Source: Butyrivibrio hungatei NK4A153 (GTDB taxonomy: Bacteria > Bacillota > Clostridia > Lachnospirales > Lachnospiraceae). Taken from it: a DNA stretch of 64,000 nt. Location: positions 1 to 64,000 of the forward strand of contig NZ_KE384195.1 in NCBI RefSeq assembly GCF_000424465.1, written 5' to 3'. Below the pieces are notes generated by a model, which had not been told where the DNA came from, searched no databases, and saw nothing but the letters and a program-made list of their open reading frames with translations. The position numbers were made by a program, and so were the translations under genes. Below are positions 41,771 to 47,015 of this stretch, piece by piece; the stretch's first letter is position 1, and every line of letters starts with the position of its first letter.

Positions 41771-42658
41771 ATGTCATATAAAGATTATATGGTACGCGCA
41801 ACCGCAGCAGATGCGCAGATAAGAGCTTTCGCTGCAACAACAAGAGATCTTGCCGAATACGGAAGAAAAGCACACAACCTCTCTCCCATTGCCGCAGCGG
41901 CACTCGGACGTCTTATGACAGGCACTGTAATGATGGGAACAATGATGGATAACGATCAGGACCTCATAACCGTAAAGATGGACGGTGACGGTCCTTTAAA
42001 AGGAGTTCTTGCTACAGCCGACAGGTTTGGTAATGTTAAGGGCTATGTTACAAATCCTTATGTTGTCATGGAACCAAATGCGGCCGGACATTTAAATGTA
42101 GGAGGCGGAATCGGCGAAGGTACTCTCACCGTTATCAGGGATATGGGGTTAAAAGAGCCCTATGTCGGCCAGGTTCCTCTGTATACCGGAGAAGTTGCCG
42201 AAGATCTCACATACTATTTTACCAAGTCTGAACAGACTCCTTCTTCAGTCGGACTCGGCGTTCTTGTTGAAAGAGAGAATCTTTCCGTTATCGCCGCAGG
42301 CGGATTTATCATCCAGCTTCTGCCCTTCGCTTCCGAAGAAGTAATATCAAAGCTCGAGGAAAATCTTACAAAATTCTCTTCGGTTACTGATATTCTCAAG
42401 GCCGGAAAGGCTCCTGAAGATTTACTTAACATAATTCTCGAAGGCTTCGATATAGAGATCACAGATAAAATTGATTTAAATTTTTTCTGCAATTGCGACA
42501 AAGACAGGGTTGAAAGAGCCCTTATGTTAATTGGCCGAAAAGAGCTTCAGGAGCTGATTGACGATGGAAAACCTATAGAATTATGTTGTCATTTTTGTAA
42601 CAAAAAATATATCTTTAAAACGTCTGAACTCCTTGAAATTCAAAGAAATTTGAAATAA
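41771..42658 (+). CDS. hslO: Redox-regulated holdase chaperone Hsp33
   Basis: A 295-residue Hsp33. The C-terminal zinc site is present as CNC (about residues 238-240) and CHFC (about 271-274); oxidation of these four cysteines releases zinc and activates the holdase. The N-terminal domain contains GRLMTGTVMMGTMM. It acts in the cytoplasm under oxidative stress. It is the first plus-strand gene after rex and is divergently oriented to it. Confidence 0.97.
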   Translation: MSYKDYMVRATAADAQIRAFAATTRDLAEYGRKAHNLSPIAAAALGRLMTGTVMMGTMMDNDQDLITVKMDGDGPLKGVLATADRFGNVKGYVTNPYVVMEPNAAGHLNVGGGIGEGTLTVIRDMGLKEPYVGQVPLYTGEVAEDLTYYFTKSEQTPSSVGLGVLVERENLSVIAAGGFIIQLLPFASEEVISKLEENLTKFSSVTDILKAGKAPEDLLNIILEGFDIEITDKIDLNFFCNCDKDRVERALMLIGRKELQELIDDGKPIELCCHFCNKKYIFKTSELLEIQRNLK

Positions 42659-42682
42659 CACCTTTTATAAAAACAGATTATG

Positions 42683-42722
42683 CGTTATACTATTACTTAG
42701 ATGTTAGTAACATTTTACTAAC
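42683..42722 (+). promoter_or_regulatory. Promoter block and 5' stem-loop of the 42758 gene
   Basis: The block CGTTATACTATTA (42683-42695, -10 TATACT at 42686-42691) is repeated at 44505-44517 ahead of the paralogue. No good -35 hexamer is visible. A hairpin GTTAGTAA/TTACTAAC (42703-42710 with 42715-42722) starts a few bases after the expected transcript start. Confidence 0.5.
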
Positions 42723-42757
42723 AAAGTTACAGGGGTTTTAACAAAGGAGGTAATAGT

Positions 42758-44377
42758 ATGACAAGACACACTGTAAAAAAATCGCGTGCCATCAGGACCG
42801 TCATGTCCTTAACTCTGGCATCGACTATCTTTCTGACTTCCGGTATAGGTGCAGCCGTTGCACATGCCGGAGGAAAAGAAGGTGTACATATAAATAACAC
42901 TTCTGGTGTAGCCAGTATCAATGATTTCAAAAAGCTTGTAGAAGAAGGAAAGGATATGTCCGATAAAACAGTTATCCTTTCAACCAATGATGCACAATGT
43001 AATTTCGATAAATATCCTTATGTTGCATCTCTTAAGAACTTTTTTGAAGATAGCTTGAAGTCTGATGTTGTTCTTATCGACACAGGTGATTTCTGTGAAG
43101 GTAAAGATATGGAAAAATTTTGGAGTGCCAACGGTGGTGCTCAGTGCATGAACACTTACGATAACGATTATGCCGCTTTCCTTGCAATGAATGAAGCCGG
43201 CTATGATTTTGCTAATTTCGGAAATTACGGATTCAACTACGGATCCGATATAAATACAAACAATTATTTTGATTCAGGTTGCAGCATTGTTAATTTCGAC
43301 TGTGCCGACAAGGCAATGAATGCTGCTTGCAAAGGCAAAGGAAAGGATTTCTCACAGTCATCCGATTGCTTCTCAAGCATTATGAAGCAAAACAACCTTT
43401 GTGACAACAGCTTCATGTATGACTGTGCTAATTCAGACATGAAGATCGGCTTCTTCGGATTGCCCGAATATGAAGCTTTAGGAAACTATGACTTATCCAA
43501 GAATTCTGAATGGTATACTTGCGCCGAACAGCAGGCTCAGAGTCTTAAGGAAGATGGTGCCGACCTTGTTATCTGCATGTCCCAGCTTGGCTTGGGTGAT
43601 GCTCTTAAGGGTGGCAGCGGAATCTTTAATCTGCTTGGCAATTTGTTTGGCCTTGGCGGAAAGAGTGCCTCAAAGGGTGCATCCAAGGGCGGATCAGGCA
43701 TGGATTTCATCGATCTTCTTCTCGACGGTTGCTCTCTCTTCGCTGAAGGCGAAAGCGCTCTGCCCCTTAAGTTAGCTGATATGCTTCTTCGTAATATCGG
43801 TGTAACAATTCTTGATAACAACAGCAAGTCTATCGAAGATAATTTCCTCTTCTCTCTCGATGACATCATCAAGAACCTTGGTGGTGATTCAAACATCTCC
43901 AAGTTCGTAAGTGATATGATCGGTGGATTTGGTTTCAACCTCTTCGGCGATGCTGATTGCGACTTCGATTGCGATTGGGATTGGGATTACAACAGCTGCA
44001 CAGGAAAGACCAACGGCAAGTCAACACCTCAGCCCAAGCCTTCACCACAGCCTAGATGCGGTGACACACCTCAGCCTCAGCCCAAACCTTCACCACAGCC
44101 AAAGCCCACTCCACAACCTAAGGGTGGCACATCCACTCCAAAACCGGACGGAGCCGCTGCACCTAAGGGTGAAACAGTTCCCGCTAAACCGGACGGAGCT
44201 GCTGCACCTAAGGGTGAGACTGTTCCGGCTAAACCTGACGGAGCTGCCGCTCCTAAGGCTGAAACCGTTCCCGCTAAGCCCGACGGAGCACCTGCCCCTC
44301 AGTATCAGCAGAACAGCAAGTCATTATTTGACGAATTATTCCCTGAAGAAGAGGATGATGATTTCTTCTGGTTCTAA
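42758..44377 (+). CDS. Exported UshA-like metallophosphatase pseudoenzyme, Cys-rich, Pro-rich tail
   Basis: A 539-residue secreted protein: signal peptide to about residue 37 (AVAHA), then a domain clearly aligned with the next two genes but with all metal ligands replaced. NDVHG is NDAQC, GNHEF is GNYGF, SHLG is SQLG and DGHSH is DGCSL; only the aspartate of DTGDF remains. The mature domain has 16 cysteines and a stretch of D/C/W residues (DADCDFDCDWDWDYNSC). A Pro/Gln/Lys linker, 15-residue repeats and the acidic end EEEDDDFFWF follow. An AAAGGAGG site and its own promoter argue for a working gene. It cannot be a phosphatase by the known mechanism. It probably binds a ligand or partner. Confidence 0.85.
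   Translation: MTRHTVKKSRAIRTVMSLTLASTIFLTSGIGAAVAHAGGKEGVHINNTSGVASINDFKKLVEEGKDMSDKTVILSTNDAQCNFDKYPYVASLKNFFEDSLKSDVVLIDTGDFCEGKDMEKFWSANGGAQCMNTYDNDYAAFLAMNEAGYDFANFGNYGFNYGSDINTNNYFDSGCSIVNFDCADKAMNAACKGKGKDFSQSSDCFSSIMKQNNLCDNSFMYDCANSDMKIGFFGLPEYEALGNYDLSKNSEWYTCAEQQAQSLKEDGADLVICMSQLGLGDALKGGSGIFNLLGNLFGLGGKSASKGASKGGSGMDFIDLLLDGCSLFAEGESALPLKLADMLLRNIGVTILDNNSKSIEDNFLFSLDDIIKNLGGDSNISKFVSDMIGGFGFNLFGDADCDFDCDWDWDYNSCTGKTNGKSTPQPKPSPQPRCGDTPQPQPKPSPQPKPTPQPKGGTSTPKPDGAAAPKGETVPAKPDGAAAPKGETVPAKPDGAAAPKAETVPAKPDGAPAPQYQQNSKSLFDELFPEEEDDDFFWF
44141..44302 (+). repeat. Tandem 45-bp repeats in Pro-rich tail
   Basis: Three full 45-bp units (44141, 44186, 44231) and a partial fourth encode KPDGAAAPKGETVPA with few changes. 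They form a wall-spanning or linker-type region. Confidence 0.9.
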
Positions 44378-44407
44378 TTTTCGAATGAAAAAGTTTTAAT
44401 ATATATC

Positions 44408-44448
44408 GAACCACTTCTTTGATCATATATCAGGGAAGTGGTTCTTTT
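44408..44448 (+). terminator. Terminator after the pseudoenzyme gene
   Basis: GAACCACTTC with GAAGTGGTTC (44408-44417 and 44435-44444), then T4. It separates the first gene from the following two. Confidence 0.8.
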
Positions 44449-44504
44449 ATTAATATATTAAAATATGAGTTAAAAATTTAGGGGTTTAATTAATTTTCTT
44501 TTTA

Positions 44505-44541
44505 CGTTATACTATTATTTAAGCATTGGGGCCCAAGATGC
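44505..44541 (+). promoter_or_regulatory. Promoter block and 5' stem-loop of the 44589 gene
   Basis: The block CGTTATACTATTA recurs here (44505-44517, -10 TATACT at 44508-44513). A hairpin follows at the expected 5' end of the mRNA (AAGCAT-TGGG/CCCA-ATGCTT type, 44521-44541). The ribosome site AAAGGAGGTAGTAGT is almost identical to that of the 42758 gene. Confidence 0.5.
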
Positions 44542-44588
44542 TTACTACGTGACACAACAGAGATTTTAACATCAAAGGAGGTAGTAGT

Positions 44589-45860
44589 ATGAAAAGACAC
44601 AATGTAAACAAAGCACCTGCCATTCGGGCTGTAATGTCTATGATAATGGCAACAGCAATCTTTCTTTCTTCAAATTTCGGTGCGTCTGTTGCACACGCCG
44701 AAACAAAAACCGTCTCATACGAACACAATGAGTCTGTTGACGGAAAAATATCTGATTTCAAAAAAATGGTAGCGGAAGGCAAAGACCTGTCCGACAAGCT
44801 GGTAATTATTTCCACAAACGATGTACACGGTGCTATACAGAAATATCCATATGTAGCATCACTAAAAAACTTTTTCAAAAATGAACTCAATGCTGATGTT
44901 CTCCTTGTCGACTCCGGAGATTTCAGCCAGGACAAAAATCCTGAACACAATAATGAGGACGCCGACAGTGCCAACTGCATGGAACCTTCAGAAGGTTTGG
45001 CCGGTGTTGAAGCCATGAACGCTGCCGGATATGATATCGCGACTTTAGGCAATCATGAATTTGAAAGTTTCGTTAAGCTTGATAAAAATCTATCGAAAGC
45101 AAAATTCAAAGTTATTTGTTCAAATCTAGTTACAAAAGATGCTCGTACAGAACTGGAAACCGCCGAAAAAAACAATAAAAATGACAACAATGCATTGATG
45201 AACGCATTTAACAGTCTTACCGAAAAAGATTATTTTTGCGCCCCAAGTTATACATATAATAGTTCCAAAACAGGCATAAAGGTTGGTTTCTTCGGCCTCC
45301 TTACAGGAGAAGCTAACATAAATAATATTTCAGCCAAAAAGTTAAAAGACTCGCTGGCATTATCTTGCGCAAAATATCAGATAAACTCTCTTGGAGATAA
45401 TGGTGCGGATATCATCATCTGTCTTTCACACTTAGGCCTTGAAGATGACCGTGGTGACCACCAAAACAGAAGTATCGATATATACAACGCAGTGAAAAAC
45501 GATCCCACATACAAGGCTAATTACCCTCTGGATCTGGTTCTTGACGGTCACTCTCACACTCTTATAAGCTCAGGCGGAAACGGTGAACCTATCATGTCAG
45601 GCAAATATATGCTTCAGTACGCAGGCATCACTATCATCGGAAAAGACACAGACGGTAAAGCTAAAATTGAAAAATCTGTCCTTGTATCACTCGATGACAT
45701 GAAAGAGAATCTCGGTCCCGATGAAGAAGCAAATGCAACCATTACAAGTATTATAAATTCATATAACCCGAGCTTCTTTGGCGGCACACCCGAAAAAACA
45801 AGCAAAGAAAAGAAATCCAATCGCTCACACTCAGACAGCAAAAGGAGGAAATCGGCATGA
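44589..45860 (+). CDS. Exported 5'-nucleotidase-family metallophosphatase
   Basis: A 423-residue secreted protein. The signal peptide ends near residue 37 (SVAHA). The catalytic domain keeps every UshA-type motif: NDVHG, SGDFS, GNHEF, SHLGLED and DGHSH, so metal binding is expected to be intact. There is no C-terminal 5_nucleotid_C domain, which binds the nucleoside in UshA, and no LPXTG. The C-terminal end is basic (RSHSDSKRRKSA). Likely it acts on a phosphate ester outside the cell; the substrate cannot be inferred. Its stop codon overlaps the next start (ATGA). Confidence 0.88.
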   Translation: MKRHNVNKAPAIRAVMSMIMATAIFLSSNFGASVAHAETKTVSYEHNESVDGKISDFKKMVAEGKDLSDKLVIISTNDVHGAIQKYPYVASLKNFFKNELNADVLLVDSGDFSQDKNPEHNNEDADSANCMEPSEGLAGVEAMNAAGYDIATLGNHEFESFVKLDKNLSKAKFKVICSNLVTKDARTELETAEKNNKNDNNALMNAFNSLTEKDYFCAPSYTYNSSKTGIKVGFFGLLTGEANINNISAKKLKDSLALSCAKYQINSLGDNGADIIICLSHLGLEDDRGDHQNRSIDIYNAVKNDPTYKANYPLDLVLDGHSHTLISSGGNGEPIMSGKYMLQYAGITIIGKDTDGKAKIEKSVLVSLDDMKENLGPDEEANATITSIINSYNPSFFGGTPEKTSKEKKSNRSHSDSKRRKSA

Positions 45861-46942
45861 ACATTATAAAAAACAAAGCAACTAAAGCCCTTCTATCAGT
45901 TTCAATGGCCACTACCCTTTTCTTTACAGCAAATGTCAGTGGCTCAATTGCAAATGCCCAAGTTGGTGATATTAACTATCCCATTCCGACCCCAAACTTC
46001 AAAGAATACAGTCATTTTGATGAACTGGCAGCAAATAATAAGAATAAAAGTTCTTCCCTCAAAGGCAAGACAATAATCCTGACAACAAACGATGTACACG
46101 GTGCGATTGAAGGTTATCCATATCTTGCAGGTTTAAAGAAGACTTTAAAAGACAAGTATCAGGCTAATGTCCTTGTCATTGACGCAGGTGATTTTAGCAA
46201 CGACAAAAAGAAACCAATTTATACAACCCCCGATAATTGTAATGCAATCGATCTGATGAACAAAGTAGGTTATGATGTTGCAACCCTTGGTAATCATGAA
46301 TTTTATAAAGCGCAATACCTTAAAGGCAACATCGAAAGAGCAACATTTAAAGTGATAAACGCAAATGTCACGCAGGAAAACACTTTTGATTTTATTAAAA
46401 ACCACAAGATCACCTTAAACGAAGATGATCCCAAAAACAAAATAACAATAGGCTTTTTTGGAGTTGCTACCCCTGATGTAACTACTTTTGACCCCAAAGT
46501 CTCTGTTGCTGTCGGCGATAAACTGCTCAACATTTCCAGAGATCAGGTTACAGAATTAAAAAATAGCGGATCTGATATTGTTATTTGCCTGGCTCATTTA
46601 GGTCTTGAAGATGCATTTGAAAAAGATCAATGCCGAAGTGTTGACGTTTATAACGCCTTGACCAAAGGAAACGCGGAACAAAATATAGCTCCGGTACCAC
46701 TTGACCTTATTGTAGACGGTCACTCACACAGCACTATTACTCCTCCTCAAAAAGGTGAACCTGAAAGAGAAAAAATATTATCAACAGGTACCGAATTTGA
46801 AAATATTGGAGTTATAGTCATCGATAATAACGATAAAGCAATTGAAGAGACATTCCTTCTCAAAACAAAGAATTTACCAAAAAATCTTCGCGATTCAGAC
46901 GTTCAGAAAGATGTAGACAAAATAATATCTCAAACCAAATAA
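45857..46942 (+). CDS. Exported 5'-nucleotidase-family metallophosphatase, second active copy
   Basis: A 361-residue paralogue of the preceding protein. The signal peptide ends around residue 34 (SIANA), and NDVHG, AGDFS, GNHEF, AHLGLED and DGHSHS are all intact. It also lacks the C-terminal nucleotide-binding domain and ends shortly after the catalytic domain. The four-base ATGA overlap and an AGGAGG upstream indicate translational coupling with the 44589 gene. The two may act together or have different substrates. It ends at a strong bidirectional terminator. Confidence 0.88.
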   Translation: MNIIKNKATKALLSVSMATTLFFTANVSGSIANAQVGDINYPIPTPNFKEYSHFDELAANNKNKSSSLKGKTIILTTNDVHGAIEGYPYLAGLKKTLKDKYQANVLVIDAGDFSNDKKKPIYTTPDNCNAIDLMNKVGYDVATLGNHEFYKAQYLKGNIERATFKVINANVTQENTFDFIKNHKITLNEDDPKNKITIGFFGVATPDVTTFDPKVSVAVGDKLLNISRDQVTELKNSGSDIVICLAHLGLEDAFEKDQCRSVDVYNALTKGNAEQNIAPVPLDLIVDGHSHSTITPPQKGEPEREKILSTGTEFENIGVIVIDNNDKAIEETFLLKTKNLPKNLRDSDVQKDVDKIISQTK

Positions 46943-46970
46943 AGTAATATATTTTTCCCACCGTATAAGT

Positions 46971-47015
46971 AAAAGCGCCACTTTTTTGAGTATCAATCAA
47001 AAAAGTGGCACTTTA
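46971..47015. terminator. Bidirectional terminator between convergent units
   Basis: A 15-bp stem (46975-46989 with 46997-47011) rich in A/T at the loop side ends both the plus-strand phosphatase unit and the minus-strand polyamine unit. Confidence 0.85.

Follow-up and report, generated by a model that had tools for sequence, protein, structure and literature searches.

A maintained pseudoenzyme of the metallophosphoesterase fold encoded beside two intact paralogues in Butyrivibrio hungatei

Introduction

The site of 5'-nucleotidases and of the CpdB-UshA family is made up of the ligand set D, H, D, N, H, H, H plus a catalytic histidine. Here we analyzed a 64,000-nucleotide stretch of Butyrivibrio hungatei NK4A153 (contig NZ_KE384195.1, positions 1 to 64,000; hereafter the window), in which three plus-strand genes between hslO and aguB, ORF1, ORF2 and ORF3, encode exported-looking paralogues of this kind, the first without any of the site histidines. 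The catalytic domain has the same fold here as in the N domain of E. coli CpdB, a 2',3'-cyclic nucleotide 2'-phosphodiesterase/3'-nucleotidase, and in YfkN (PDB 3gve), and the site motifs of these two are found in ORF2 and ORF3, whereas ORF1 has no site histidine. Compared with CpdB, the three are natural genes without the C-terminal domain, and ORF1 adds a repeat tail; compared with the UshA 5'-nucleotidase (PDB 1ush), none of the three has the PF02872 domain and ORF1 also lacks the metal-site histidines. According to the CpdB study, the enzyme without its C domain retains hydrolysis of 2',3'-cyclic mononucleotides and bis-4-nitrophenyl phosphate (bis-4-NPP) with a 1.4-3-fold lower kcat and a 10-20-fold higher KM, and activity on 3'-AMP and dinucleotides is mostly lost (PMC7922932).

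A further comparison, with VPS29 of the retromer, is one of analogy only. VPS29 is eukaryotic and cytosolic. Its phosphoesterase-type fold is called inactive and serves as a protein-interaction scaffold according to PMC7539009, so scaffolding by inactive folds of this type is already known. Among the matches listed for open-licence PMC papers on pseudoenzymes, nucleotidases, Butyrivibrio or B. hungatei, we found no description of the ORF1 protein, and the terms nucleotidase and phosphoesterase are absent from PMC6344614.

Results

The reading frames lie where a first-pass annotation of this DNA had placed them, and an alignment of the three proteins confirmed the motif correspondence that it had proposed, as well as the stretch KYPYVASLKNFF common to ORF1 and ORF2. 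The nine aligned site columns read DHDNHEHHH in both ORF2 and ORF3 and DQDNYGQC- in ORF1, where NDAQC, GNYGF, SQLG and DGCS-- stand opposite NDVHG, GNHEF, SHLG or AHLG, and DGHSH. The genes and the site motifs of ORF1 are as follows.

42758..44377, + strand: ORF1, 539 amino acids, exported metallophosphoesterase-fold pseudoenzyme
44589..45860, + strand: ORF2 (act1), 423 amino acids, exported N-domain-only metallophosphoesterase with all nine site residues intact
45857..46942, + strand: ORF3 (act2), 361 amino acids, second N-domain-only metallophosphoesterase, overlapping ORF2 by 4 bases
42986..43000, + strand: degenerate motif I of ORF1, NDAQC; retains D78, with Q80 in place of His and C81 in place of Gly
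43085..43096, + strand: motif II, GDFC; D111 kept, C113
43220..43234, + strand: degenerate motif III, GNYGF; retains N156, with Y157 in place of His and G158 in place of Glu
43580..43591, + strand: degenerate motif IV, SQLG; Q276 in place of His
43724..43738, + strand: degenerate motif V, DGCSL; C325 in place of the first His, and a gap of two residues where the second would be

The annotation had described all histidine ligands and the glutamate of GNHE as gone from ORF1. This held for the five histidines and the glutamate, but the ligands D78, D111 and N156 remain. It also had to be amended at two positions, since SHLG, which it assigned to both intact copies, is AHLG in ORF3, and the fifth histidine of ORF1 is not substituted but falls in the two-residue gap. 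The loss pattern was common to six genomic copies (G000, the genome of the window, G034, G032, G087, G072 and G025) and the database protein P0005, G025 differing in that K80 replaces Q80 and V325 replaces C325. All nine site residues were present in 58 of the 60 aligned rows that are not pseudoenzymes, the other two being a fragment and a row with an E to D change; the aligned rows are part of the relatives, with 120 of 3231 matches listed and, among their new identifiers P0019-P0128, P0019-P0059 aligned. D78, D111 and N156 were retained in all seven pseudoenzyme rows and in P0008, a single metagenomic protein that reads DHDNYEQY- and has kept histidine 1 and the glutamate and lost histidines 2 to 5. 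Positions 81 and 113 of P0008 are still Gly and Ser. Its tail (residues about 388-452) carries repeated DF-GWFSQGF-like units with cysteines and aromatic residues, unlike the Pro-rich tail of ORF1. The near-total lack of histidine in mature ORF1 (0-1 in the six copies) was considered as a separate finding and dropped; it adds little because act1 has just 1-4 histidines outside the site (6-9 in total).

ORF2 and ORF3 matched the Pfam family PF00149 at 1.2e-7 and 1.3e-10, respectively, and a Pfam scan of ORF1 gave no match, PF00149 included. The C-terminal substrate-binding domain PF02872 was not matched in any of the three proteins at E up to 1, and the earlier label of UshA-fold phosphatase thus overstates the neighbours. 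Because this domain is missing, the N domain of CpdB on its own, which acts mainly as a phosphodiesterase, is a better parallel for ORF2 and ORF3, and by that comparison they are probably exported phosphodiesterases. Models of 2',3'-cyclic-nucleotide phosphodiesterase/3'-nucleotidase matched ORF1, the best at 9.9e-10 with 37 bits against a curated cut-off of 486; ORF2 and ORF3 likewise scored under the cut-offs of such models. The ORF1 family profile matched the structures 5eqv, 3gve and 3jyf. When its own genome was searched with ORF1, ORF2 was returned at 1.4e-62 and ORF3 at 7.7e-25; another hit, C1:111257 (E 5e-4), was rejected as a low-complexity likeness to a metallo-beta-lactamase-fold/CinA protein. 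The phage family phrog_19584, of unknown function, matched ORF1 weakly (2.7e-6) and ORF2 and ORF3 more strongly. The N-terminal metallophosphoesterase fold of the CpdB-UshA family is present, and the dinuclear metal site with the catalytic histidine is found in ORF2 and ORF3 and is absent from ORF1.

ORF1 was detected in 6 of 79 Butyrivibrio genomes, and in these separate assemblies all six frames were open and no site was intact. The named carriers were all Butyrivibrio: besides the six genomes, a scan of a collection of 84,980 species yielded five named loci and one distant Mogibacterium relative, its reach being limited to sequences with one of two peptide patterns in common. In a tree of 67 rows from which the nine site columns were excluded, the seven pseudoenzyme rows formed one clade (100/100), joined by P0008 (100/99) and next by act1 of G072 with P0007 (99/90). 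The simplest reading of this topology is that the loss happened once. The tree program flagged long branches, P0008 included, and an odd letter make-up of the P0005, G072, G032 and G000 copies. By Nei-Gojobori counting, the ratio of nonsynonymous to synonymous substitution (dN/dS) of ORF1 was 0.074-0.130 in 14 of 15 pairs, the remaining pair having no finite dS. The ratio was 0.192-0.339 for act1 in 9 of 10 pairs (G000-G034, with a dS of 0.004, was excluded) and 0.009-0.090 for hslO, aguB, aguA and rex. Constraint on ORF1 is tighter than on act1 and mostly looser than on these four housekeeping neighbours. In codon bootstraps of the nine informative pairs, act1 exceeded ORF1 in 95.7-100% of the resamples with finite values; for the other pair it did so in 193 of 320. 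The loss of all five site histidines would be expected of a decaying pseudogene or a sequencing artefact, but the six open frames, the dN/dS of 0.07-0.13 and the conserved leader and terminator-like hairpin described below argue otherwise, and we rejected decay or assembly error as exceedingly improbable. The first-pass annotation had proposed looking for intact or frame-shifted homologues, none of which occurred among the six carriers, and its view of a maintained pseudoenzyme is upheld: ORF1 is a homologue of enzymes that has lost its catalytic residues and is kept by selection.

The distribution of constraint also differs between the two genes. Invariant residues of the five act1 sequences cluster at the catalytic motifs (0.75 vs 0.32 elsewhere, p 7e-10), whereas the six ORF1 orthologues show no such clustering at the old site (0.64 vs 0.52, p 0.11). 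The densest invariant block of ORF1 is the following.

43763..43852, + strand: residues 336-365 of ORF1, 28 of 30 invariant (12 of 34 in the matching act1 block)

The six mature pseudoenzymes contain 15-17 cysteines as against 3-5 in act1. Cysteines C81, C175 and C405 were present in all seven pseudoenzyme rows and in none of the 61 other rows, so that among the rows compared C81 is found only in pseudoenzymes; C223 and C401 were common to the pseudoenzyme rows and P0008. Together with the retention of D78, D111 and N156, these cysteines might suggest that the emptied site has taken up new chemistry as a different metal or redox site, formed by the oxygen ligands D78, Q80, D111, N156 and Q276 and the thiols C81, C113 and C325, with a function of its own. 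We consider this very improbable, since G025 has K80 and V325, several other cysteine positions shift among orthologues, no special conservation marks the old site, and a cysteine stands at position 113 in two rows whose sites are intact (N_G023c and P0033), so that C113 was not gained only with the loss. On account of these two rows a co-gain of C81 and C113 was rejected, and cysteine-site readings were given lower odds. We accordingly give little credence to a scenario in which a cysteine site took the place of the metal site. In it, the histidines would have gone stepwise, with P0008 as the half-way state, C81 would have arisen opposite C113 beside the retained D78, D111 and N156, and a phosphodiesterase would have turned into an exported protein for binding or redox response that has a new conserved face at 336-365 and is controlled by its own private leader.

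The promoter, ribosome site, signal peptide and terminator that had been ascribed to ORF1 could be read in part, as a ribosome site, a conserved TATACT box and a terminator-like hairpin; its signal peptide was assigned by inspection only.

42686..42691, + strand: TATACT box, candidate -10 of ORF1, conserved upstream of all 6 pseudoenzyme copies and of act1 in 5 of 5
42702..42723, + strand: candidate 5' leader hairpin, weak (leader z-score -1.15)
42726..42755, + strand: leader with ribosome site, exact pattern only upstream of pseudoenzyme genes
42758..42868, + strand: N-terminal signal peptide, residues 1-37 of ORF1, by inspection
44408..44444, + strand: terminator-like hairpin after ORF1, 16 pairs, with a similar one in each of the 5 syntenic genomes
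44508..44588, + strand: TATACT box and leader of ORF2, related to those of ORF1
46977..47009, + strand: terminator-like hairpin after ORF3

Generic scans of the region gave counts that were not above chance, both for promoters (20 found vs 14 +/- 4 expected) and for terminator hairpins (6 vs 4.9 +/- 2.4), and the case for these signals therefore rests on conservation. An Rfam search of 42600-44700 had no match at E up to 1, and the hairpins of five folded leaders were not above chance (z-scores -1.33 to 0.35). The exact leader pattern occurred in 5 of the 79 genus genomes, G025 included, and upstream of ORF1 only, with a variant in G032; the leader is a possible private cis-regulatory element. 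The leader corresponding to 42726-42755 is identical in the relocated G025 copy, even though the synonymous sites of that copy and the window copy have diverged to saturation. Judged from this layout, ORF1 looks like its own transcription unit, and ORF2 and ORF3, with their 4-base overlap, look like an operon.

It had been suggested that ORF1 serves its active neighbours as a dedicated partner, decoy or ligand-binding regulator. As a subunit of a hetero-oligomer with ORF2 and/or ORF3 it would tune or anchor them, as pseudoenzyme subunits often do. In agreement with this, ORF1 and the active copies share their ancestry, the hslO-ORF1-ORF2(-ORF3)-aguB order is found in five genomes (G000, G034, G032 and G087 with ORF3, and G072 without it), the genome has the combined pattern of TATACT box and GGAGG ribosome site at two places only, before ORF1 and before ORF2, and the 5 of 79 genomes with a close act1 relative (> 580 bits) all have ORF1. 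On the other hand, ORF1 has its own terminator-like hairpin in 5 of 5 genomes, G072 lacks act2, and one conserved ORF1 stands beside very different active copies, which appear to have been exchanged between species. In G025, an 84%-complete metagenome-assembled genome, ORF1 lies at another locus and no active relative was detected, nor was hslO found. Weighing the two sides, we regard a dedicated partnership as rather unlikely.

The exchange of the active pair is indicated by two comparisons. When G000 is compared with G034 in bins of 200 bases, identity is 99-100% across ORF2-ORF3 and 81-96% in the flanks, with a dS of 0.004 for act1, 0.009 for act2 and 0.49-0.85 for the four flanking genes. 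Between G032 and G000, most flanking bins are 94-100% identical (82 and 90% in the two just beyond ORF3), and the four flanking proteins are 98-99% identical as against 62% for act1 and 44% for act2. By sequence comparison, then, the two active genes pass between species, whereas most of ORF1 does not; its part at 43801-44200 was also exchanged with G034. The near-identity to G034 (99-100%) at 43801-44200 and 44601-47000 points to recent recombination that swapped both active genes and a portion of ORF1.

The remaining features of ORF1 lie towards its C-terminus.

43949..43999, + strand: Asp/Cys/Trp-rich stretch DADCDFDCDWDWDYNSC, residues 398-414
44141..44289, + strand: 45-bp repeat, 3.3 copies, encoding the Pro/Lys/Gly/Ala tail

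The neighbours hslO, aguB, aguA and rex were named from NCBIfam matches, that of aguB (407.9 bits) being slightly under the cut-off of 410.25. G023 and G035 have intact relatives in the same gap, where ORF1 is not found, and the G023 relative matched PF02872 at 1.7e-35. At L027:2448-4508 in this gap is a full-length phosphoesterase with PF00149, PF02872 and a C-terminal LysM, and a two-domain enzyme bound to the wall may therefore have been encoded at the locus at one time. The hslO-aguB gap of G023 and G035 (L027:4811-13455 and L028:6731-13290) also encodes exported-looking Asn-rich repeat proteins with starts like MRRKEFISKKLAV. These adjoin the intact phosphoesterase copies, and two that were scanned had no Pfam match.

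Discussion

We consider it likely that ORF1 is a maintained, exported, non-catalytic pseudoenzyme with a binding or structural role. By comparison with the intact copies, a protein without the site histidines probably does no phosphodiesterase chemistry, and it probably binds something instead of cutting it. The comparisons indicate that ORF1 arose once, by duplication in a lineage of N-domain-only genes resembling cyclic-nucleotide phosphodiesterases, and that the site histidines were lost stepwise, with strong purifying selection on ORF1 thereafter. Hydrolysis of phosphate esters would have ended, and the fold may now serve as a binding or structural module at the cell surface, its working face having shifted from the old metal site to around residues 336-365. 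The Pro-rich tail, with its Cys, Asp and Trp residues, could reach through or along the wall. More tentatively, C81 may pair with C113 at the emptied site and so stabilize loops that were formerly held by metal.

Several points weigh against this interpretation. In several pairs dS exceeds 1, which makes those ratios rough. The block 336-365 was picked post hoc from the profile, so that its p of 3e-6 is indicative only, and P0008 is a single sequence on a long branch. The predicted model of ORF1 is middling, with a predicted local distance difference test score (pLDDT) of 68, a predicted template modelling score (pTM) of 0.77 and few close homologues. Its loop disorder may stem from the alignment for that reason; further low-confidence stretches lie outside the old site, and motif I is not among the low ones. 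Finally, C113, occurring in N_G023c and P0033 as well, is not confined to pseudoenzymes.

Genes of this kind are passed by in annotation, ORF1 having no Pfam match and the only orthologue with a named source being called 'hypothetical protein'. The carriers are a group of rumen bacteria. For this exported bacterial pseudoenzyme there are intact paralogues next to it, several orthologues and an intermediate caught halfway through the loss. Such a set makes it possible to study the order in which catalytic residues are lost, what takes the place of the metals, and why the dead copy is under tighter selection than the intact one.

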